DNA of 64,000 nt, taken from an uncultured Bacteroidales bacterium. Lineage in GTDB: Bacteria > Bacteroidota > Bacteroidia > Bacteroidales > Barnesiellaceae. This document shows positions 9,737 to 20,195 of this stretch, piece after piece. A program made the position numbers and the translations under genes. The stretch's first letter is position 1. Each line of letters begins with the position of its first letter. Under the pieces are notes generated by a model that was not told the origin of the DNA, made no database searches, and worked only from the letters and a program-made list of their open reading frames with translations. The DNA is taken from assembly GCA_949298955.1 (NCBI GenBank), contig CASFYQ010000006.1, positions 1 to 64,000 of the forward strand. Reading direction: 5' to 3'.

Positions 9737-11668
9737 TCAGAAACTCAGGTTTACCCCCGCCATGAATGTAGCGCGAGGCATGGGGTATCCGGCATTGATT
9801 TCATAACGTTGTGCCAGCAGGTTTTCGCCGCGAGCCCACAGGCCGAGCCAGCGGTTTATCCGGAACGACGCGTTGAGGTTCCACAAGACAAACTCCTCGG
9901 TTTGTGCATTGTTGCCCACAGAGGTGTAGAGGTTATCGATATATTGCAGGCCGGTAGAGACCGTCCACCGTTTGTGGGTGTATTGTGCTCCGGCATAGAG
10001 CTTGTGTTCGGGAGCGCCTGTCACGGGATTTTCCATGTGCAGGTAGCTGTAATTGGCTTCGACCGACCAGTGGGAGCCGATGCGGTAGGCCACCTCGGTC
10101 TCCACGCCGCAGTTGTCTATTTCGCCGGTATTCATGTTCAGGGGGGAGGCCCCTTGGCGCGGCACGGTGACGATGAGGTTTTTGCCGTCGATGTAGAAAA
10201 GGTTGATGCCATAGGAGAGATTGCCGTCGAGCAGATGTTGAGCAAAGGCCAGTTCGTAGCTCCACATCGACTCGGGTTTCAAGTCAGGATTTTGGGGAGG
10301 AAACATATACATCTCGCGCAGAATAGGATAGCGAAACCCTTTCGAGGCCGAGGCTTTCAGTTCGATGGCGCGGGGCAGGTGGAATGCCAGTCCGGCTTGC
10401 GGCACCCATTCGGTCCCTACCCGAGAGTGATAGTCGACACGCACCCCGGCATCGAGGGTGAGCCGGCTTCCGAGGTCTTGCCTGAAATCGACGTAGCCGG
10501 CCAGTTCGTCTTCGTGTTTGTCGACCAGGTCGTTTGTCGTGCCCGCCTTCTCGCCGCTCACGGTTTTGTTCCAGGCATGGCCGCCGTAGCGGAACCAGTC
10601 GAAGCCCAGGGTGATGCGGTTGCCCGGGAAGAACCGGGTGCTTTGGTAGAGCGACAGCCCCATCATATTGTCGAACGAGAGGAACCGGCTTTCTTTCGGC
10701 TTTTCGCCTTTCGAGGGGGTATACCCGTCGTTAATCCAGTGATTGCCCCAGTTGTAGAAGAAGCTGGCGGCTCCCGAGGTTTTATCGTATTTGTTCTCTA
10801 CGGCAAAAGAGGTCATACCCCGGGTGATGCTTTGGTCGCCGTCGAGCAGCGGTGCGCTTACCGGTCCCGGATAGGAGGCGTTGAAATGGGTCACGTTGAC
10901 ATCGCCGCGCAGATTCCAGTTGTCGTCGATTTCATAACCCAGTTTGGCATAACCGCCGTATTGTTCGAATCCCATGTCGGAGCGGTGGCCGTCGGTGCGG
11001 TTGTACGAGCCGCTGATAAGGCTCGAAAAACGGCCCTTTCTGATGCGGTTGGTCACCTCGCTTTGCAGGGTGTTGAACGAGCCGTATCCCAGGTTGACGT
11101 TGGTCTTTACCCCCTCTTCGTGCATTTGGCGGGTGACGATGTTGATGACCCCGCCCATGGCATTCGAGCCGTAGAGTACCGAGGCCGGGCCGCGTAATAC
11201 CTCTATCCGTTCGGCCATGAACGACTGGTAGGCGTCGGAGATGGGGTGCCCGAAGATGCCGGCATATTGCGGGTGTCCGTCGATGAGCACCATCAACCGG
11301 CCCGAGCCGCCGCTCAATCCGCGTAAGGCTATACCGCCTGCTGCGCCGTCGGATACACCGTAGCCCATGATGCCTCGCGAGGTGATGAAGAGGCCGGGCA
11401 CTTGCTGGGTGAGTACCGGCAACACCGAGGGTTGCATGCTTTGCTCGATTTCCTCGCGGTCGACGACCGATACGGTGTGGGGCAAATGCCTCACATCGGT
11501 CTCGTTGCGGGTACCGGTGACGACTACCTCGCCGATGCGAATCGGGTCGGAGGGTTTCCCGGCCATAGCCAGAAAAGTGTTGTATGCCAGAGAGTCGATT
11601 TGTGCCGAAACCATTCCGGCGAAACTTAAAAACAGGGATAAAATTTTGATTCTCATTCGTTTGTTCAA
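9737..11668 (-). CDS. TonB-dependent receptor, BtuB/FepA-like size
   Basis: The 643-residue protein has a signal peptide ending near FAGMVSAQ. A TonB-box-like segment follows (IGEVVVTGTRNETDVRHLPHT starts near residue 44). The plug has GIALRGLSGGSGRLMVLIDG and RIEVLRGPASVLYGSNAMGGVINIVTR, and a barrel ends in NLSF. There is no carboxypeptidase-like extension, so it is the plain siderophore/cobalamin type. The substrate is not determinable. It is monocistronic and converges on the other receptor. Confidence 0.88.
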   Translation of the reverse strand: MNKRMRIKILSLFLSFAGMVSAQIDSLAYNTFLAMAGKPSDPIRIGEVVVTGTRNETDVRHLPHTVSVVDREEIEQSMQPSVLPVLTQQVPGLFITSRGIMGYGVSDGAAGGIALRGLSGGSGRLMVLIDGHPQYAGIFGHPISDAYQSFMAERIEVLRGPASVLYGSNAMGGVINIVTRQMHEEGVKTNVNLGYGSFNTLQSEVTNRIRKGRFSSLISGSYNRTDGHRSDMGFEQYGGYAKLGYEIDDNWNLRGDVNVTHFNASYPGPVSAPLLDGDQSITRGMTSFAVENKYDKTSGAASFFYNWGNHWINDGYTPSKGEKPKESRFLSFDNMMGLSLYQSTRFFPGNRITLGFDWFRYGGHAWNKTVSGEKAGTTNDLVDKHEDELAGYVDFRQDLGSRLTLDAGVRVDYHSRVGTEWVPQAGLAFHLPRAIELKASASKGFRYPILREMYMFPPQNPDLKPESMWSYELAFAQHLLDGNLSYGINLFYIDGKNLIVTVPRQGASPLNMNTGEIDNCGVETEVAYRIGSHWSVEANYSYLHMENPVTGAPEHKLYAGAQYTHKRWTVSTGLQYIDNLYTSVGNNAQTEEFVLWNLNASFRINRWLGLWARGENLLAQRYEINAGYPMPRATFMAGVNLSF

Positions 11669-11818: not shown

Positions 11819-12979
11819 TCAGTAACCAAACCGTTGGGCAGCCCGTTGCATTGACTCGACGATTTTCACGCCGAAGGGACAACGTGTTTCGCAGGCGTGG
11901 CAGGCGACACACTCCGAAGCATGGTGGTCGAGCGCCTTGTAGTGTTCACGCACGGTCTCGGGAATTTCGCCTTGGGCGACCGTCAGGTTATAGAATTTGT
12001 TCACCGAGGCGATGTCGATTTTCGATGTACAGGGAGCGCAGTGGCCGCAATACATGCAGTGGCCTTGCCACGAGAAGCGGTCGAGCCCGGTCATCACCCG
12101 GGTATAGTCGCGCTCTTGGGGAGTGGCTTGGCACCAGGCTACCGCCCGGGCTATCTCGTTGCGGCTCTTGCAACCCACCATCACGGCAGCCACGGCCGGA
12201 CGGGTGAGGGCATATTCGATGGCCTGTACCGGAGTGAAGGCACAGCCGAAGGGTGAGTTCTCCCGGTCGAGCAGGTCGCCGCCGCCGAAGACCTTCATCA
12301 CATCGATGGCCACGCCTTCGCGTTCGCACAAGGCATAGAATTGCTCGCGGGCCGGGTCGATGTTGTGCAGGGTACCGGCGTAGCTTGCCTGGTCGAAGAG
12401 CGTGTCGACATCTTCATTGGGGGGCAGCAGGTCGTAGCAGGGATTGATAGAGAAGAGGATTACGTCGATGAGTCCCGTCTTCACCGCCATGCCGGCCACG
12501 ATGGGGTTGTGGCTGCTCATACCTATGTGACGTATCTTGCCCTCGGCTTTCAGCCGTCGGGCTATCTCGATGATTTCGTGGTCGAACACGGTATGGAAAT
12601 CCTCTTCCGAGTCGACATAGTGAATCATGCCTATATCCACATAGTCGGTGCGCAACTGTTCGAGCAAGGTTTCAAATGATTCGATTGTTTTCTTGGGGTC
12701 GCGGGTGCGCAGATACTGGTCGTTTTCCCAGACGGTACACAAATGCCCTTGTATGACGAAGCGGTCACGGCGGCCTTCGAGCGCTTGCCCGATATGGGTC
12801 CGCAAGTCGGGATTCGACGAGTAGAGGTCGACAAAGTTGATACCTTGTTCGATGGCAAAATCAAAATCGGTTTTCACCTCCTCGGCGCTTTTGTTCATAA
12901 AACCCTCACAGCCGAGGGCGACGGCGCTCACCTGTATCCCGGTGCGGCCTAATGTACGGTATTCCATAAGCGGATTCAA
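11819..12979 (-). CDS. Aldo/keto reductase with C-terminal 4Fe-4S domain (cytoplasmic)
   Basis: The 386-residue protein has an aldo/keto reductase barrel at about residues 1-270, with YRTLGRTGIQVSAVALGCEG at the start. Two cysteine groups follow near the C-terminus: CMYCGHCAPC (about residue 297) and CVACHACETRCPFGV (about 353-367). No signal peptide is present. The start codon overlaps the stop of the previous gene by 4 bases, so translation is probably coupled. It is the third gene of the ferredoxin-aldo/keto reductase operon. The Fe-S domain suggests electrons enter from a ferredoxin-like partner rather than only from NADPH (inference). The substrate is unknown. Confidence 0.88.
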   Translation of the reverse strand: MNPLMEYRTLGRTGIQVSAVALGCEGFMNKSAEEVKTDFDFAIEQGINFVDLYSSNPDLRTHIGQALEGRRDRFVIQGHLCTVWENDQYLRTRDPKKTIESFETLLEQLRTDYVDIGMIHYVDSEEDFHTVFDHEIIEIARRLKAEGKIRHIGMSSHNPIVAGMAVKTGLIDVILFSINPCYDLLPPNEDVDTLFDQASYAGTLHNIDPAREQFYALCEREGVAIDVMKVFGGGDLLDRENSPFGCAFTPVQAIEYALTRPAVAAVMVGCKSRNEIARAVAWCQATPQERDYTRVMTGLDRFSWQGHCMYCGHCAPCTSKIDIASVNKFYNLTVAQGEIPETVREHYKALDHHASECVACHACETRCPFGVKIVESMQRAAQRFGY

Positions 12980-14358
12980 AATTCTTTACCTTGTTTCAAA
13001 TCTTCGACAAAGCGGTCGATGCGATGCAGTTCCTTGGGTATGTCGATGCTTTGCGGGCAATGGTGTATGCACTGTCCGCACCCCACGCAGTGGTTGGCTT
13101 GGCGCAATTTGGGTACGCTGCGGTCATACCCGATGAGGAATGCTCGCCGGGCCTTGCGGTAGTTCTCGTCCTGCGACGAAGCTGGCACGTTGCCTTCGTT
13201 GATGCACTTGTTATAGTGGACGAGAATGGCGGGTATGTCGATGCCGTAGGGGCAAGGCATGCAATATTTGCAGTCGTTGCAGGGAATCGTGGGGTAGCGC
13301 ATCATCAGTTGGGCGGTCTCTTCGAGAAAATCCCGGTCGTTGTCGGTGAGGGGATCGAGGGGCGAATAGGTGCGCAAGTTGTCTTGCAGATGCTCCATGT
13401 AGGTCATGCCGCTCAGCACGGTGAGCACGTCGGGGAAAGAGCCGGCAAAGCGGAAGGCCCATGAGGCCACGCTCAACTCGGGTTTCCGTTGTTTGAGTTT
13501 GGCAGCGATGTGGTCGTGTACGTTCGACAGACGGCCGCCCAGCAGGGGCTCCATGATGATGGCGGGAATGTTGCGCTTTTTCAATTCGGCATAGAGATAC
13601 TCGGCGTTTACGTTGCGTCCCGAAGCGTGGAGCCAGTCGACGTAGTTGAGCTGAATCTGTACAAAGTCCCAGTGGGCAAAATCGTCCATGGCCAGCACCT
13701 CGTCAAAGACATCTTTTGTGCCGTGGAACGAGAAACCCAGGTTGCGGATACGACCTGCCTTGCGCTCCTCGATGAGGAAATCGAGCAGGCCGTTGTCGAT
13801 GTAGCGGGCCCGGAAGGTCTCGATGCCGCCGTTGCCGATGGAGTGGAGCAGGTAGTAGTCGATGTAGTCGACTTGCAGGTCGACAAACGACTTGCGGTAC
13901 ATGGCGATGGAGTTTTCGCGGGTATAGTTGGCAAAATTGGACAATTTGGTGGCGATGAAATATTTGTCGCGCGGATAGCGTTTGAGGGCGATACCGGTCG
14001 CTTTTTCCGAGCCGCCCTGCATGTAGACTGGAGCGGTGTCGAAATAATTCACGCCGTGGGCGATGGCATAGTCGACCAGTTCGTTTACGGCTTCCTGGTC
14101 GATGGTGCTGCTGGTTCCGTCGGACGAAGGGATACTCGGCAGTCGCATCATGCCGTAGCCCAGCAACGACACACGGTCGTGGGTGGTGGGGTTGGTGCGG
14201 TAGGTCATCTGGTCGGTGGGGATTTCGGTCGTTGCCGTGTGAGCCTCTTGCTGCCGGTTTTTACACCCGGGCAGTATGGCGGTCGAGGCGATGGCCGTTC
14301 CGCCCAAGACTTTCAGGAAATTCCTGCGGTCTATATGTTTGTTTTGCTTGTTTTCCAT
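12976..14358 (-). CDS. Tat-exported lipoprotein aldo/keto reductase with two 4Fe-4S motifs
   Basis: The 460-residue protein opens with a twin-arginine signal (DRRNFLKVLGG), a short hydrophobic stretch and a lipobox-like LPGC near residue 32. It thus looks like a folded, cofactor-loaded protein exported by Tat and anchored by lipid. The aldo/keto reductase domain covers about residues 55-345. The C-terminal ferredoxin region has CNDCKYCMPCPYGIDIP and CVGCGQCIHHCPQSIDIP. A periplasmic aldo/keto reductase has little access to NADPH. Electrons could therefore come from the membrane Fe-S protein encoded 19 bases upstream (inference). It overlaps the next gene by 4 bases. tatA/tatC lie 6-7 kb away. 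Confidence 0.85.
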   Translation of the reverse strand: MENKQNKHIDRRNFLKVLGGTAIASTAILPGCKNRQQEAHTATTEIPTDQMTYRTNPTTHDRVSLLGYGMMRLPSIPSSDGTSSTIDQEAVNELVDYAIAHGVNYFDTAPVYMQGGSEKATGIALKRYPRDKYFIATKLSNFANYTRENSIAMYRKSFVDLQVDYIDYYLLHSIGNGGIETFRARYIDNGLLDFLIEERKAGRIRNLGFSFHGTKDVFDEVLAMDDFAHWDFVQIQLNYVDWLHASGRNVNAEYLYAELKKRNIPAIIMEPLLGGRLSNVHDHIAAKLKQRKPELSVASWAFRFAGSFPDVLTVLSGMTYMEHLQDNLRTYSPLDPLTDNDRDFLEETAQLMMRYPTIPCNDCKYCMPCPYGIDIPAILVHYNKCINEGNVPASSQDENYRKARRAFLIGYDRSVPKLRQANHCVGCGQCIHHCPQSIDIPKELHRIDRFVEDLKQGKEF

Positions 14359-14377: not shown

Positions 14378-15871
14378 TTAGATGATGCGGTGTTTTTGAT
14401 GCCCCTCTACATAGATGGCGCTGAATGGACGGGCCGGGCACAGGTTCTCGCAGGCGCCGCAGCCGATGCAACGCTCGGTGTTGACAACCGGGATTCGGGG
14501 CGAGTCGGCCACGTCGGGGTCCGAGGCGACCATCTGAATGGCTCCCACGGGACAGTGGCGGGCGCAGTTTCCGCAACTCACACCGTCGGTGAGGACGATA
14601 CAGTTGTCTTTCACCCATACGGCATGCCCTATCTGTATGCCCGATTTTTCGGCCAAAGAGGTCAGACGGATAGCGTCAGTGGGACAGACTTCGGCACATT
14701 TCGCACATTCCGGGCGGCAATATCCCCGCTCGTAAGACATTTCGGGTTGCATGAAAGTCATCAACTTGCCCGACGGGCGCAGCACCTGATTGGGACAGTT
14801 CGAGATACACAACTGGCAGGCGGTGCAGTGCTGGGCCAGATGCGAGGCGCTGAGCGAGCCCGGTGGAGTGATGGGGGTGGCACGCTTGGGTATTTTCTTT
14901 TCTTCGATAATCGCGAGGCCTCCGTCGACTTTCATCTCTTGTGCTTTCAGCAGTGCACTCCCTGCCAATACGCCGGTGAGGGTGAGGAATGCCCGGCGCG
15001 ATTCGGCTCCTTTCTCCTCGGTGCCGGTGGCCGGTTTTGTCGGTCGAACGGCCCGGGTGCGAGGCGCGTAGCGTATGGCACCTTGGCGGCATTTGTCAAT
15101 ACAGTCGAAACACGTCACGCAGCGGCTGTAATCGATGGTGTGGTTTTTGGCGTCGATGCACGAAGCCTTGCAGTTGCGGGCACACGACTGGCAGCCGTTG
15201 CATTTGCTTGTATCGATGACAGGGCGGAAGAGCGAGAAGTGCGAAAGCATTCCCAGAGTGGTGCCTACCGGGCAGATGGTGTTGCAATAGGTGCGTCCGT
15301 TGCGCCAGGCCAGCACGACGATGACGGCAAGGGTGATAAGGGCCACGAGGAGCGAGGGGAGGCTTTTGAGCCAAACCTCGGTCGAGTAGAAGGCATAGCT
15401 GTCGAAATGTTCGGCCACGGCAGCGAGCAGGTTGTTCCCCCATCGGTAAACAGGTGCGAACAGATTGGTGGCAATGCGGCCGTAGGCACTGTATGGTGCG
15501 ATGAGGGCGGCCCACGAAGCCAGCCCGGCTACCATTGTGGCGATGAAGATGACCAGCATACCGTAGCGCAGCCACGAAAGGGCCGGCGAGTAGCGGAAGC
15601 GGTTCTTCTTGTGTTTGCCGGCTACCCACGAAACGATGTCCTGAAATACACCCAGCGGGCAGATGACCGAGCAGTAGATGCGGCCGAAGAGCAGGGTGAG
15701 TGCGACGAGCAGAATGATAACACCCGCATTTAAGGCCAGCACGGCCGGGAGAAATTGTATTTTGGCCAGCCAGCCGAACCACAGGTGCAGTGTGCCCGTG
15801 ACGTCGAGGAACAGCAGCGTGATGAGTGCAAAGCAGATAGTTGCTGCAACTATTCTGATTTTTCGTAACAT
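14378..15871 (-). CDS. Membrane polyferredoxin, NapH-like and NapG-like halves fused
   Basis: The N-terminal half of this 497-residue protein has about five membrane helices and two CxxxCP motifs (YCSVICPLG near residue 66, YCNTICPVG near 198), as in NapH/NosR/RdxA membrane ferredoxins. Ferredoxin motifs follow: CNGCQSCARNCKASC and CVTCFDCIDKC. At about residue 292 RRAFLTLTGVLAGSALL resembles a twin-arginine signal and begins a NapG-like part. That part carries CTACQLCISNCP, CAKCAEVCP, CGNCARHCP and CIGCGACENLCP. This suggests one protein carrying electrons from the membrane quinol pool to the periplasmic side. It heads the operon with the two aldo/keto reductases. An operator and a promoter lie upstream at 16098-16166. 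Confidence 0.85.
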   Translation of the reverse strand: MLRKIRIVAATICFALITLLFLDVTGTLHLWFGWLAKIQFLPAVLALNAGVIILLVALTLLFGRIYCSVICPLGVFQDIVSWVAGKHKKNRFRYSPALSWLRYGMLVIFIATMVAGLASWAALIAPYSAYGRIATNLFAPVYRWGNNLLAAVAEHFDSYAFYSTEVWLKSLPSLLVALITLAVIVVLAWRNGRTYCNTICPVGTTLGMLSHFSLFRPVIDTSKCNGCQSCARNCKASCIDAKNHTIDYSRCVTCFDCIDKCRQGAIRYAPRTRAVRPTKPATGTEEKGAESRRAFLTLTGVLAGSALLKAQEMKVDGGLAIIEEKKIPKRATPITPPGSLSASHLAQHCTACQLCISNCPNQVLRPSGKLMTFMQPEMSYERGYCRPECAKCAEVCPTDAIRLTSLAEKSGIQIGHAVWVKDNCIVLTDGVSCGNCARHCPVGAIQMVASDPDVADSPRIPVVNTERCIGCGACENLCPARPFSAIYVEGHQKHRII

Positions 15872-16097: not shown

Positions 16098-16128
16098 CAA
16101 AGATAGCAGAGGCCGGTACACCGTAAAA
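16098..16128 (-). promoter_or_regulatory. Predicted promoter of the ferredoxin-aldo/keto reductase operon
   Basis: Read on the minus strand, 16105-16098 is TATCTTTG, a perfect TAnnTTTG -7 box. TTTT at 16128-16125 is a weak -33 box, 19 bases upstream. A weak -33 with an adjacent operator is what an activator-dependent promoter looks like. Confidence 0.6.
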
Positions 16129-16134
16129 GAGACA

Positions 16135-16166
16135 GATTACAGATAGTTGTACCTATATTACAGATT
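16135..16166. promoter_or_regulatory. AraC-type operator candidate, copy 1
   Basis: The 32-base block begins GATTACAGATAG and ends TTACAGATT. It contains ATTACAGAT twice as a direct repeat with 21-base period, two helical turns, as expected for AraC-family sites. It matches the block at 17645-17676 at 26 of 32 positions. It starts 29 bases upstream of the -7 box of the minus-strand promoter, the same distance as at copy 2. It also lies 67 bases before the NUDIX start. Confidence 0.65.
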
Positions 16167-16232
16167 ATATTTAGATGTCCTTATACTTTGATGCAGGTCT
16201 TATGCGTTTATTTTTTATAAGAAATATTTGTC

Positions 16233-16865
16233 ATGAGTACTCAATCCAACGAATCGCCCATGTGGCTCGACTGGGCAAAGGAATTGCAATTTATCGCTCA
16301 AGCGGGATTGGCTTATTCTAAAGACCCTTTTGATTTGGAGCGTTTCCAGCGCATACGGGAAATCTCGGCCGAGATTGTGAGCCGCCATACCGGACTGCCC
16401 TATGAGCAGGTGGCGCATCTGTTTTGTCGTGAAACAGGGTTTCAAACTCCCAAGCTCGATACTCGGGCCGCTGTTTTTGAGGGAGAAAAGATTTTGCTGG
16501 TCGAGGAGCGCGACGGGACTTGGTCGTTACCCGGAGGGTGGGTCGATGTGAACCAAACCCTCAAAACCAATACGGAGAAAGAGGTCCTCGAAGAGGCGGG
16601 TCTCGAGGTAGAGGTGGTGCGCTTGTTGGCCTTGCAGGATCGAAATCTTCATAACAAGCCTCCCTATGCCTACAACGTGTGCAAAGCGTTTTTCCTCTGT
16701 CGGGCCAAACAAGGTGCTTTCCGCCCCAATTCCGAGACTTTGGGGAGCGCTTATTTTGCCCTCGACGAGCTGCCGATTCTCTCGGAAGACAAGGTTACCC
16801 GCGAGCAGATAGCCCTCTGTTTCGAGGCCGCCCGGGACGAGAATTGGGTGGTGCCTTTTGATTGA
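16233..16865 (+). CDS. NUDIX hydrolase, ADP-ribose pyrophosphatase-like
   Basis: The 210-residue protein has an N-terminal NUDIX_N helical domain at about residues 8-65 (WAKELQFIAQAGLAYSKDPFD...RYxRIREI-like). A NUDIX fold follows at about 68-200. The NUDIX box is readable as GGWVDVNQTLKTN then EKEVLEEAGL. Two consensus positions are altered: the first Glu of Gx5E is Gln, and the Arg of REUxEE is Lys. The EE pair that binds metal is intact, so activity is plausible. The likely substrate class is nucleoside diphosphates linked to sugars. It is divergent from the ferredoxin operon and shares its control region. Confidence 0.85.
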   Translation: MSTQSNESPMWLDWAKELQFIAQAGLAYSKDPFDLERFQRIREISAEIVSRHTGLPYEQVAHLFCRETGFQTPKLDTRAAVFEGEKILLVEERDGTWSLPGGWVDVNQTLKTNTEKEVLEEAGLEVEVVRLLALQDRNLHNKPPYAYNVCKAFFLCRAKQGAFRPNSETLGSAYFALDELPILSEDKVTREQIALCFEAARDENWVVPFD

Positions 16866-16950
16866 ATACGATTTTAGCGCATAAATTTTTCCGAAGGGAC
16901 AAACTCGATGTCCATAGCGAAATGGCTTTGTGCCTGTTGGGTATATGAAA

Positions 16951-16988
16951 GGTCTGAGCCTGTGGATTTCAGTCCGCAGGTTCAGACC
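16951..16988. terminator. Hairpin between convergent NUDIX and flavodoxin genes
   Basis: GGTCTGA/TCAGACC outer arms and CCTG/CAGG inner arms form an imperfect stem of about 14 pairs between the two convergent stops. ATAAAAAAAC follows on the + side and TTTCATAT on the - side. Confidence 0.6.
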
Positions 16989-17016
16989 ATAAAAAAACAG
17001 GGGTATGCTACTCATT

Positions 17017-17571
17017 CTATTTGAGTAAGTCGAGTTTTTGTAACCATTTGTCGACAATCGTGCGGCAGTTCCCGGTCGAGCTGTCGCGCATGGAGAGGCC
17101 GTCGAGGAAACGGGCTCCGGGACACAACTTTTTGAGGTCGGCGATGGCATGGCCGAAACCACCTCCGCCGTGGGTCATAAAGGGGATAATGGTCTTCCCG
17201 TTGAAATCGTAGCCCGTCAGAAACGAGGCTACGGGCGGTGCTACGGTGCTCCACCAGTTGGGCGAGCCCACGAAGACAACGTCGTAGGAATCGAAATCTC
17301 TCACCCGGTTTTTCAGGGCGGGGTGTTGCCCGGCATTGATTTCGCGTTTGGCCACATCGAGCAGTGAATTGTAGTCGGTAGGGTAGTCCTTTTGCGGGAC
17401 AATTTCGAAGAGGTCGGCCCCGACAGCTTTGGCTATCTCGGTGGCTACGGTGCGGGTGTTGCCACTGTGCGAAAAGTAGGCGACAAGTACTTTCTGCCCT
17501 TTTTCCCGGTTTTGGGCGGGTGTGGCGATGCAAGTAAACATGAGCATGGCTAAAACAATTTTGTGAATCAT
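17017..17571 (-). CDS. Exported flavodoxin-fold protein
   Basis: The 184-residue protein has a signal peptide (MIHKIVLAMLMFTCIATPAQ) and then a flavodoxin domain. The FMN phosphate loop is SHSGNTRTVA near residue 35-44. GSPNWWSTVAPPV and FMTHGGGGFGHA supply the isoalloxazine loops. The start at 17571 fits the signal peptide; 13 further in-frame codons upstream run into the promoter. Export is odd for an electron carrier, but it matches the neighbouring periplasmic aldo/keto reductase, for which it might be a partner (inference). The predicted promoter and operator are at 17608-17676, and the AraC regulator is divergent. Confidence 0.87.
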   Translation of the reverse strand: MIHKIVLAMLMFTCIATPAQNREKGQKVLVAYFSHSGNTRTVATEIAKAVGADLFEIVPQKDYPTDYNSLLDVAKREINAGQHPALKNRVRDFDSYDVVFVGSPNWWSTVAPPVASFLTGYDFNGKTIIPFMTHGGGGFGHAIADLKKLCPGARFLDGLSMRDSSTGNCRTIVDKWLQKLDLLK

Positions 17572-17607
17572 AAGAGTTTGTTTTCTTGTGTTTGAATTTC
17601 TCAACAG

Positions 17608-17615
17608 CAAAATTA
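17608..17615 (-). promoter_or_regulatory. Predicted -7 box of the flavodoxin promoter
   Basis: On the minus strand 17615-17608 reads TAATTTTG, a perfect TAnnTTTG. No TTTG is found 19-21 bases upstream, which suggests activator dependence. The start codon is 36 bases downstream. Confidence 0.55.
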
Positions 17616-17644
17616 CGCTTTCCGATAGCCTGCTGTCGTATATC

Positions 17645-17676
17645 GATTACGGATAGGTGTACCATTTTTACCGATT
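17645..17676. promoter_or_regulatory. AraC-type operator candidate, copy 2
   Basis: GATTACGGATAG...TTTACCGATT is the partner of the block at 16135-16166 (26 of 32 bases equal). It has the same internal 21-base direct repeat (ATTACGGAT and TTTACCGAT). It starts 29 bases from the flavodoxin -7 box, exactly as copy 1 does from its own -7 box. It also lies 37 bases before the -7 box of the divergent araC-type gene, so autoregulation is possible. Confidence 0.65.
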
Positions 17677-17713: not shown

Positions 17714-17721
17714 TAACTTTG
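17714..17721 (+). promoter_or_regulatory. Predicted -7 box of the AraC-type regulator gene
   Basis: TAACTTTG is a perfect Bacteroidales -7 box, 66 bases before the chosen start codon. No clear -33 box is seen. Confidence 0.5.
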
Positions 17722-17787: not shown

Positions 17788-18690
17788 ATGGCTATGGACG
17801 AGATTCTGAAACTGGATCATATCTTCCAGTACAACGATATGATGGGACAGGAGACTTTACACCCGCTGGTGAGTGTGGTTGATTTTTCGAAATGCAGCCC
17901 CATACCCTATCGCTTGCAACGGTATGGCTTCTACGCTGTTTTTTTGAAAGATGTCAAGTGCGGCGATATACGCTACGGACGCAACTACTACGACTATCAG
18001 GAGGGTACGCTCGTTTTTGTGGCTCCGGGTCAGGTAGTGGGTATTGTCAACAACGGCGAATATTTCCAGCCCAAAGGGTGGGCATTGCTTTTCCATGCCG
18101 ATTTGATACGGGGCACGTCGTTGGCCCGCGAGATGAAACACTATTCGTTCTTTTCCTATGAGTCGAACGAGGCACTGCATCTCTCGGAGCAGGAGCGCAA
18201 GGTGGTGCTCGACTGTTTCCATAACATCGAATCGGAATTGCATCACGCCGTTGACAAACACAGCAAAACCCTTATCGTGGCCAATATCGAGCTGTTTCTC
18301 AATTATTGCGTGCGTTTTTATGACCGGCAGTTTATTACTCGCAGCCATGTGAACAAGGATATTCTCACCCGATTTGAAAATTTGTTGAACGACTATTTTG
18401 GGTCCGACAAGCCGCAGACCGTCGGGCTGCCGTCGGTACAGTATTGTGCCGAGATGCTGCACCTCTCGCCCAACTATTTCGGTGACCTCATTAAGAAGGA
18501 GACCGGCAGCACGGCACAAGAACATATTCAGGCCAAACTGATAGGGGTAGCCAAGGAGCGTATCTTCGACACCTCGCTCTCGGTGAGCGAGATTGCCTAT
18601 GGATTGGGATTCAAATATCCGCAGCATTTCAGCCGTCTGTTCAAGCAGAAGGTGGGTATGACTCCCAACGAATACCGTTCGCAAAATTGA
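17788..18690 (+). CDS. AraC-family transcriptional regulator
   Basis: The protein is 300 residues from the ATG at 17788; an ATG two codons later and a GTG at 17773 are alternatives. The N-terminal part (about 10-180) is a cupin-like sensor domain with the DYQEGTLVFVAPGQV signature. The C-terminal part has two helix-turn-helix motifs, around SVQYCAEMLHLSPNYFGDLIKKETG and SVSEIAYGLGFKYPQHFSRLFKQ, ending GMTPNEYR. It is divergent from the flavodoxin. The paired operators at 16135 and 17645 make it the prime candidate for control of flavodoxin and the ferredoxin-aldo/keto reductase operon. The inducer is unknown, and an electrophile or redox signal would fit. Confidence 0.88.
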   Translation: MAMDEILKLDHIFQYNDMMGQETLHPLVSVVDFSKCSPIPYRLQRYGFYAVFLKDVKCGDIRYGRNYYDYQEGTLVFVAPGQVVGIVNNGEYFQPKGWALLFHADLIRGTSLAREMKHYSFFSYESNEALHLSEQERKVVLDCFHNIESELHHAVDKHSKTLIVANIELFLNYCVRFYDRQFITRSHVNKDILTRFENLLNDYFGSDKPQTVGLPSVQYCAEMLHLSPNYFGDLIKKETGSTAQEHIQAKLIGVAKERIFDTSLSVSEIAYGLGFKYPQHFSRLFKQKVGMTPNEYRSQN

Positions 18691-18857: not shown

Positions 18858-20195
18858 ATGAATGAGAAGAGGAGCAAGGCAGAGTGGCTGCGACGCTATG
18901 CCAGTTTTGTGGTTATTCTTTTTGTAATTGCCTTCGGTACATCGTTGTCTATACGAGCCAACTTGGGTTCTTCGCCCATTTCGGCCCCGCCCTATATCCT
19001 GTCGTTAATCCCGGGTATGCGCCTTACTATGGGGCAACTCACCATGTGCATGCACGTTTTCTTTATTGCGATTCAAGTGTTGTTGCTGCGCAAAAATTTC
19101 GAGAAACGGCAATATACCCAGATTTTGGTCTCGTTCCTCTTCGGCTTCTATACCGACCTTACGATGTGGATGACCGGTTTCCTGCAAATCCCGTTCGATA
19201 CCGAGCCTCTCATCGGTTATCCGTTGCGATTTATCGAGTTGCTCATCGGCGGAGCCATTTTGGCATTCGGTATTGCCTGTGAGGTACGTTGCGACTCGCT
19301 CATGCTGGCCGGCGAAGGCATGCCGTTGGCCATCTCGAAATTTTTGAAGAAAGATTTCGGCAAGGTAAAGATTTGTACCGATACGTCGCTGGTGTGTATC
19401 GGCATCCTCTTCATGTTTGTCTATTTCGGCCACTGGGATTGGCAGATGGTGGGTGTGGGTACCTTGGTCTCGATGTTTTATGTGGGCTTTATGGTACGGG
19501 TCTTTACTCCGCACATCGGGTGGCTTGACAAGATATTTATTCCCAAGTCTGTCCGGCAGGCAGCCCGGCCTGAGGCAGGCGACACCTGGGGCGGCCACCG
19601 GGTTGTCACCATCGCCCGCATGTATGGAAGCGGTGGCAATGCCGTAGGCGAGGCTGTGGCCCGTCGGCTGGGGTGTCCCTGTTACAATCGTCAGATTATC
19701 GATAGGACTGCTTGCCAGATGGGCTATTCGACCGACTTTGTGGCCGAGACCGAACAGAACCTCTCGACCGGCCGCCTGTGGGAGTTGATATTCTCCGATA
19801 GCGGTATTCCCGCCTCGATGAACCCCTCGAAAGAAGATGCCATCTATGTGAGCCAAAGCCGCACCATTCGCGAACTGGCGCACCAAGGGCCGTGCGTCAT
19901 TATCGGGAGATTGGGCAACTGGATTTTGCGTGACGACCCTCATGTGTTGCGGGTATTCATCACATCGGGGCGAGACTTTGCCGTGAGGCAGATAGCCGAA
20001 AAACTCCACCTCTCGGACGAGGAGGCCGCTCGTAAAATCGAGCGGGTGAATACCGGCCGGGCCAATCATTATCGGCATTACACCGGCCGCTCGTGGACCG
20101 ATATTGCCGGCTACGACTTGGTAATCAATACCGAATGCACCGGTATCGACGGCGCTGTCGATATGATTTTGCGCGCAGCTAAAAATATCGGGTAG
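18858..20195 (+). CDS. YczE-like membrane domain fused to a cytidylate-kinase-like domain
   Basis: The 445-residue protein has two parts. Residues ~12-225 have about five membrane helices and match the YczE/YitT-like integral membrane proteins (GTSLSIRANLGSSPISAPPY). Residues ~243-440 are a cytidylate-kinase-like P-loop domain. The loop is RMYGSGGNAVGEAVARRLG, where GSGG replaces the usual GxGKS/T, as in the Cytidylate_kin2 family. YNRQIIDR, VIIGRLGN and RDFAVRQIAEKL follow. A TTG at 18843 is also in frame, but the ATG fits better. The kinase part would face the cytoplasm, and its substrate is unknown. The gene is monocistronic and converges on tatC. Confidence 0.8.
   Translation: MNEKRSKAEWLRRYASFVVILFVIAFGTSLSIRANLGSSPISAPPYILSLIPGMRLTMGQLTMCMHVFFIAIQVLLLRKNFEKRQYTQILVSFLFGFYTDLTMWMTGFLQIPFDTEPLIGYPLRFIELLIGGAILAFGIACEVRCDSLMLAGEGMPLAISKFLKKDFGKVKICTDTSLVCIGILFMFVYFGHWDWQMVGVGTLVSMFYVGFMVRVFTPHIGWLDKIFIPKSVRQAARPEAGDTWGGHRVVTIARMYGSGGNAVGEAVARRLGCPCYNRQIIDRTACQMGYSTDFVAETEQNLSTGRLWELIFSDSGIPASMNPSKEDAIYVSQSRTIRELAHQGPCVIIGRLGNWILRDDPHVLRVFITSGRDFAVRQIAEKLHLSDEEAARKIERVNTGRANHYRHYTGRSWTDIAGYDLVINTECTGIDGAVDMILRAAKNIG

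Follow-up and report, generated by a model that had tools for sequence, protein, structure and literature searches.

In Escherichia coli, AraC recognizes araI1-I2 through two 17-bp half-sites, which form a direct repeat with a 21-bp period and abut the upstream element of the promoter. AraC-type dimers on 21-bp direct repeats are a kind of system that is already known. The HTCS regulators of Bacteroides that carry an AraC-type output likewise have direct repeats, at an average distance of 21 bp (PMC3878776). Another AraC-type regulator of E. coli, YqhC, is the activator of yqhD and dkgA (PMC6115493, PMC8262776), and no operator for it is described in PMC8262776.

We studied a 64-kb stretch of a Bacteroidales genome (the window), in which two similar intergenic blocks lie upstream of redox genes. 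On the evidence of the sequence, we consider it highly probable that the blocks serve as operators for the AraC-family product of the gene at 17788, which would activate the ferredoxin-aldo/keto reductase (Fd-AKR) operon, the flavodoxin gene and an operon behind a third site, and would sense a carbonyl or redox compound. The genes concerned are as follows.

17788..18690, plus strand: AraC-family regulator, 300 aa, with a predicted cupin/dimerization domain and HTH_18 (Pfam and structure model)
14378..15871, minus strand: NapH/NapG-related membrane polyferredoxin, encoded by the first gene of the Fd-AKR operon
12976..14358, minus strand: aldo/keto reductase with a 4Fe-4S domain and a Tat-type, lipobox-containing N-terminus (MENKQNKHIDRRNFLKVLGG...LPGC)
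11819..12979, minus strand: aldo/keto reductase with a C-terminal 4Fe-4S domain
9737..11668, minus strand: TonB-dependent receptor (Pfam), possible distal member of the operon
17017..17571, minus strand: Flavodoxin_4 protein with a predicted signal peptide, 184 aa from its ATG (Pfam 3.5e-33 on the frame 17020-17610)

We compared the protein and its sites with the systems named above. The C-terminal double HTH domain matched HTH_18 above the cut-off (Pfam E=9e-20), while Pfam returned HTH families only and no match for the N-terminal domain. In an AlphaFold model (pLDDT 86), the regulatory domain with its dimerization helices resembled those of RhaR (TM_t 0.72) and AraC (TM_t about 0.62), and the N-terminal domain is predicted from this to have the cupin-type ligand and dimerization fold of the AraC/XylS family. 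By the model, RhaR would be the closest solved regulatory-domain fold; however, RhaR and RhaS regulate sugars, and sequence identity in this domain is 8-12%. The predicted dimer with a cupin-like N-terminal domain, the half-site length, the period and the promoter-abutting site are all as in AraC, whereas the half-site sequence and the targets are different, the promoters are of the -33/-7 rather than the -35/-10 type, and the ligand is very probably another one. YqhC and the 17788 protein are both AraC-type regulators adjoining aldehyde/carbonyl reductase genes, as identified here by homology, and a DkgA-like aldo/keto reductase and an Fe-ADH are among the predicted targets, as with YqhC. The present system, however, belongs to another phylum, and its targets include flavodoxin, polyferredoxin and Fe-S aldo/keto reductase genes. 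A YqhC-type N-terminal domain was not found in the 17788 protein: its NCBIfam matches lay far below the cut-off and none was YqhC, and Pfam gave none. With the HTCS regulators it shares the phylum, the AraC-type HTH and direct repeats about 21 bp apart. Those regulators, though, are histidine kinase-receiver fusions for polysaccharide loci, whereas here a one-component protein is predicted to exert redox/carbonyl control; fused sensor kinase or receiver domains were absent from its 300 aa, which had HTH matches only. In a search of the open-access literature we found no description of this regulator, its operator or its regulon.

Inspection of the sequence placed block 1 at 16135-16166 (GATTACAGATAGTTGTACCTATATTACAGATT) and block 2 at 17645-17676 (GATTACGGATAGGTGTACCATTTTTACCGATT). 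The earlier note had counted 26 identical positions out of 32 and a direct repeat with a 21-bp period in each block, and both observations were correct to the base (ATTACAGAT twice, and ATTACGGAT with TTTACCGAT, respectively). The sequence of its 32-base block stood, but not the extent: the conserved operator reaches 7 bases further left, to about 37-39 bp, and includes a left TATAC box that the shorter block lacked.

16128..16166, minus strand: AraC-type operator 1 (predicted), facing the Fd-AKR operon, supported by genus conservation and the out-of-genus matrix; half-sites at 16129-16145 and 16150-16166, minus strand
17638..17676, minus strand: AraC-type operator 2 (predicted), between the flavodoxin gene and the AraC gene, supported by conservation and the matrix; half-sites at 17639-17655 and 17660-17676, minus strand

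Site model R1 gave E=1.5e-8 for operator 1 and E=2.9e-9 for operator 2, which are rough values for two of its own training sequences. A degenerate pattern matched the window twice and 100 dinucleotide shuffles not at all, a partly circular comparison in that the pattern was derived from the sites; with up to 2 mismatches allowed, it found just these two places in the whole genome (G000). A further match at 59976 on contig 1, with 3 mismatches and within a reading frame, was rejected as probably a chance occurrence. Because the degenerate pattern came from the sites themselves, a stronger test was a non-circular matrix derived from 75 out-of-genus sites, all upstream of homologous AraC genes. 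This matrix scored 39.0 at 17638 and 17.5 at 16128, with no further score above 8 in the window and none above 8 in ten Markov-simulated windows.

The blocks were then sought at orthologous loci, a check that the earlier note had proposed, and they proved to be conserved genus-wide, both before the Fd-AKR operon and before the flavodoxin gene. The genus set comprised nine Bacteroidales genomes, including that of the window (2.54 Mb, Barnesiella-like). Eight of the nine carried a site with zero mismatches and the ninth a site with one, and in all nine a site lay upstream of the Fd-AKR operon and/or the flavodoxin gene (the operon in eight genomes, the flavodoxin gene in eight loci compared). 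Within the genus the 39-bp site was 83% identical, whereas the linker reached 37% and the right flank 32-36%, and CAAAnnTA stood at exactly 29 bases in 21 of 28 genus sites. In other genera the site also precedes Fd-AKR or flavodoxin orthologs, in identical orientation and mostly with an identical linker. Moreover, in one genus genome (G007, locus L051) the flavodoxin gene and the Fd-AKR operon form a single cluster behind a single site, facing the AraC gene; judged from the gene order, this is a natural rearrangement joining both targets. Similarly, flavodoxin and Fd-AKR genes are clustered and face the AraC gene in an uncultured Bacteroides (L121), and flavodoxin adjoins polyferredoxin genes in G076 as well as in L121.

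Across the phylum, we examined the best 80 of at least 593 homologs of the regulator, with gene calls in the retrieved loci that were mechanical and in some cases in the wrong frame. Among these 80, relatives of 64-74% identity occur in Bacteroides, Parabacteroides, Alistipes, Paludibacter, Mucilaginibacter, Pedobacter, Chitinophaga, Flavobacterium, Chryseobacterium, Rufibacter and others, and in 79 of the 80 loci the AraC gene is preceded by a matching operator, usually 50-70 bp (about 60) from the start of the gene. The logo of these loci reads kTATACnnATTACkGnTTTnncTACCAnTATTACTGAT, flanked by a CAAA box (a minus-strand -7) 22 bp to the left and by TAnTTTTG (a plus-strand -7) 36 bp to the right. 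The self-similarity of the matrix is maximal at a shift of 21 bp. From this and the logo, the operator therefore consists of two 17-bp half-sites, TAYAC-nn-ATTACnGAT, in direct repeat with a 21-bp period, that is, about two helical turns apart as in the AraC/XylS family. In the divergent -7 box, CAAA is conserved at 81-90% per base. A phylum consensus pattern found 20 matches in 14 of 297 genomes, and the reversed control pattern 0 in the same 297. Tandem operators about 60 bp apart were also seen upstream of flavodoxin-Fd operons in L177 and L180 (G189 and G086), as variants with TATAC in place of TACC in the second half-site.

We examined the promoters that the operators face, together with that of the AraC gene.

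16098..16105, minus strand: TATCTTTG, -7 box serving the Fd-AKR operon; 22 bp separate it from the 39-bp operator and 29 bp from the block
17608..17615, minus strand: TAATTTTG, -7 box serving the flavodoxin gene; 22 bp separate it from the operator
17714..17721, plus strand: -7 box TAACTTTG of the AraC gene, the third such box, 37 bp from operator 2

Reading the sequence, we found the TAnnTTTG box exactly 29 bases from the block at both target promoters, as had been claimed, and inspection agreed that the -33 boxes are poor, a TTTG-like -33 element being absent from both. A missing -33 is what is expected of activator-dependent promoters. The TATAC end of the operator lies 22 bp from the target -7 box, a distance that puts the expected -33 position against the operator, and since no -33 element is present there, the geometry would be that of activators which contact the polymerase beside the promoter. 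The direction of control is thus inferred from the position of the site only. The same operators could serve a regulator that mainly represses the target genes and itself: divergent promoters flank a site, AraC-family proteins commonly regulate their own genes, and the constant 36-37 bp that separate site and AraC promoter throughout the phylum are compatible with either sign. We regard this as improbable, because the targets lack a -33 element and the site ends where one is expected, the usual position of an activator, and because the genus comparison found the operator-to-(-7) linker constant in length and not in sequence. At the AraC gene itself, the operator stands 36-37 bp from the gene's own -7 box in 58 of 79 phylum loci, a fixed distance that suggests autoregulation, probably, and of either sign.

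As to which protein binds the sites, one of the nine HTH_18 proteins encoded in the window's genome belongs to this subfamily; its locus bears a site and the other eight HTH_18 loci bear none. Regulator and site co-occurred with Fisher p=4e-16 in 297 genomes of the phylum and with p=1e-20 in 247 genomes of the order; this association is partly trivial, in that one site adjoins the regulator gene itself, and sites in that position account for much of the phylum figure. In a less trivial comparison, among 27 Fd-operon orthologs from other genera, the regulator was present in 9 of 9 with a site versus 10 of 18 without one (p=0.026). It might be argued that a different AraC paralog binds the sites, given that there are nine HTH_18 proteins to choose from and that six genus genomes retain sites in the absence of a 90% ortholog. 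Those six genomes, however, carry a homolog of 57-59% identity with identical recognition-helix residues, in most cases with its own, weaker site, and by its sequence this homolog is inferred to serve as their regulator. With a single subfamily member in the window's genome, no site at the other eight loci, and only this subfamily found travelling with the site across the phylum, binding by another paralog is quite unlikely. That the two blocks are merely alike by chance, as AT-rich intergenic stretches, is hardly credible: conservation, the out-of-genus matrix, the reversed control, the shuffles and the co-occurrence all refute it.

Binding by the 17788 protein is thus the preferred reading. 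It had been claimed that the regulator gene adjoins one of the sites, which it does, and that the three transcription units form one redox regulon. The single regulon is supported by conservation, by co-occurrence and by the sole subfamily member, but its description needed refining: it extends to at least one further operon beyond the window, and "redox" is better worded as carbonyl/redox. Membership of the Fd operon varies, because in 10 of 19 regulator-bearing genomes of the order the best Fd-operon ortholog has no site upstream.

The additional site lies outside the window at 170067-170097 of contig 6 (L329), with E=1.4e-4 under the site model, a rough value for a sequence that was not used in training. 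It has a 22-bp linker to a CAAAAATA box, as at the other two, and precedes an operon encoding an alpha/beta hydrolase together with a hexapeptide transferase. Sites of this type were also found in G004 (L331, both genes) and G005 (L330, hydrolase), and in the 80 phylum loci all 6 homologs of the hydrolase gene and all 4 of the transferase gene stood in the operon divergent from the AraC gene. Aldo/keto reductases were present in the operon divergent from the AraC gene in 47 of 75 loci, as the first recognised gene in 31. The divergent operons of these 75 loci also contained cupins (28), DUF4440 proteins (24), carboxymuconolactone decarboxylases (15) and flavodoxins (10), while fewer held SDRs, alcohol dehydrogenases or molybdenum aldehyde oxidases. 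Gene families of this kind suggest that the regulon serves to reduce or remove carbonyls and compounds resembling quinones. An exported redox regulon was considered and rejected: a crude hydrophobicity test put signal peptides at 44% in the divergent operons and likewise at 44% in neighbouring genes. For the flavodoxin gene, ATG 17571 is more likely the start than TTG 17610, because the latter sits at the promoter; the start of the G007 ortholog agrees. The TonB-dependent receptor adjoins the Fd-AKR operon in most genus genomes, with a 12-bp gap in G007, and its substrate may be linked to the signal of the regulon. Such a receptor recurs downstream of aldo/keto reductase genes, and also near an AraC-linked operon elsewhere (e.g. 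L087).

Two neighbouring genes were assessed as further targets.

16233-16865: NUDIX hydrolase (Nudix_N domain); most genus genomes, not all, have it divergent to the Fd-AKR operon
18858-20195: DUF6198 membrane domain fused to a cytidylate kinase-like domain; the upstream sequence is conserved around TATAAATAAGTTTAAAGCCGG

The NUDIX gene shares the intergenic region near 16.1 kb with the Fd-AKR operon, and in most genus genomes the site lies in this shared region. Site 1 could then serve mainly the NUDIX gene and stand upstream of the operon only incidentally. Yet in G003 (L067) the site stays at the Fd operon with the NUDIX gene several kb away, the distance to the NUDIX-side TATACTTT element varies whereas that to the Fd -7 box is constant, and the recurrent operon families of the phylum are of other kinds. 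We therefore give this explanation very little weight; the Fd-AKR operon remains the likely target, and the NUDIX gene is probably not one. The 18858 gene adjoins the flavodoxin site in genomes without the AraC gene, but it was rejected as a target: towards this gene the site has no -7 box at the conserved spacing, and the sequence upstream of the gene is itself conserved.

Based on this arrangement, we propose that a dimer of the 17788 protein occupies both half-sites on one face of the DNA, that the proximal half-site would substitute for the missing -33 element, and that the bound dimer would activate the Fd-AKR operon, the flavodoxin gene and the hydrolase-hexapeptide transferase operon. 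As the signal, we consider a reactive carbonyl or a redox-active compound most likely, with the cupin-like N-terminal domain as its putative sensor. All of 81 homologs retain Cys58, Cys143 and Cys174 are 96% conserved, and thiol-based sensing through these residues is possible. Going further, and tentatively, an ancient one-component regulator of Bacteroidota might sense reactive carbonyls or other electrophiles covalently via Cys58 (with Cys143 and Cys174) and, standing in for the -33 element at a constant spacing, induce a modular detoxification regulon, as a counterpart of YqhC of separate origin; we put this forward as a doubtful but conceivable extension.

Bacteroidota dominate the gut and many soils. 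To our knowledge, operators have been defined for few one-component activators of this phylum other than those of sugar metabolism. In the present case, phylum-wide conservation fixes the operator, its half-sites, the distance to two promoters and the likely regulator. The finding would offer a ready system for the study of activator action at the unusual -33/-7 promoters of Bacteroidota, and it predicts genes that would respond to a common carbonyl or redox stress.
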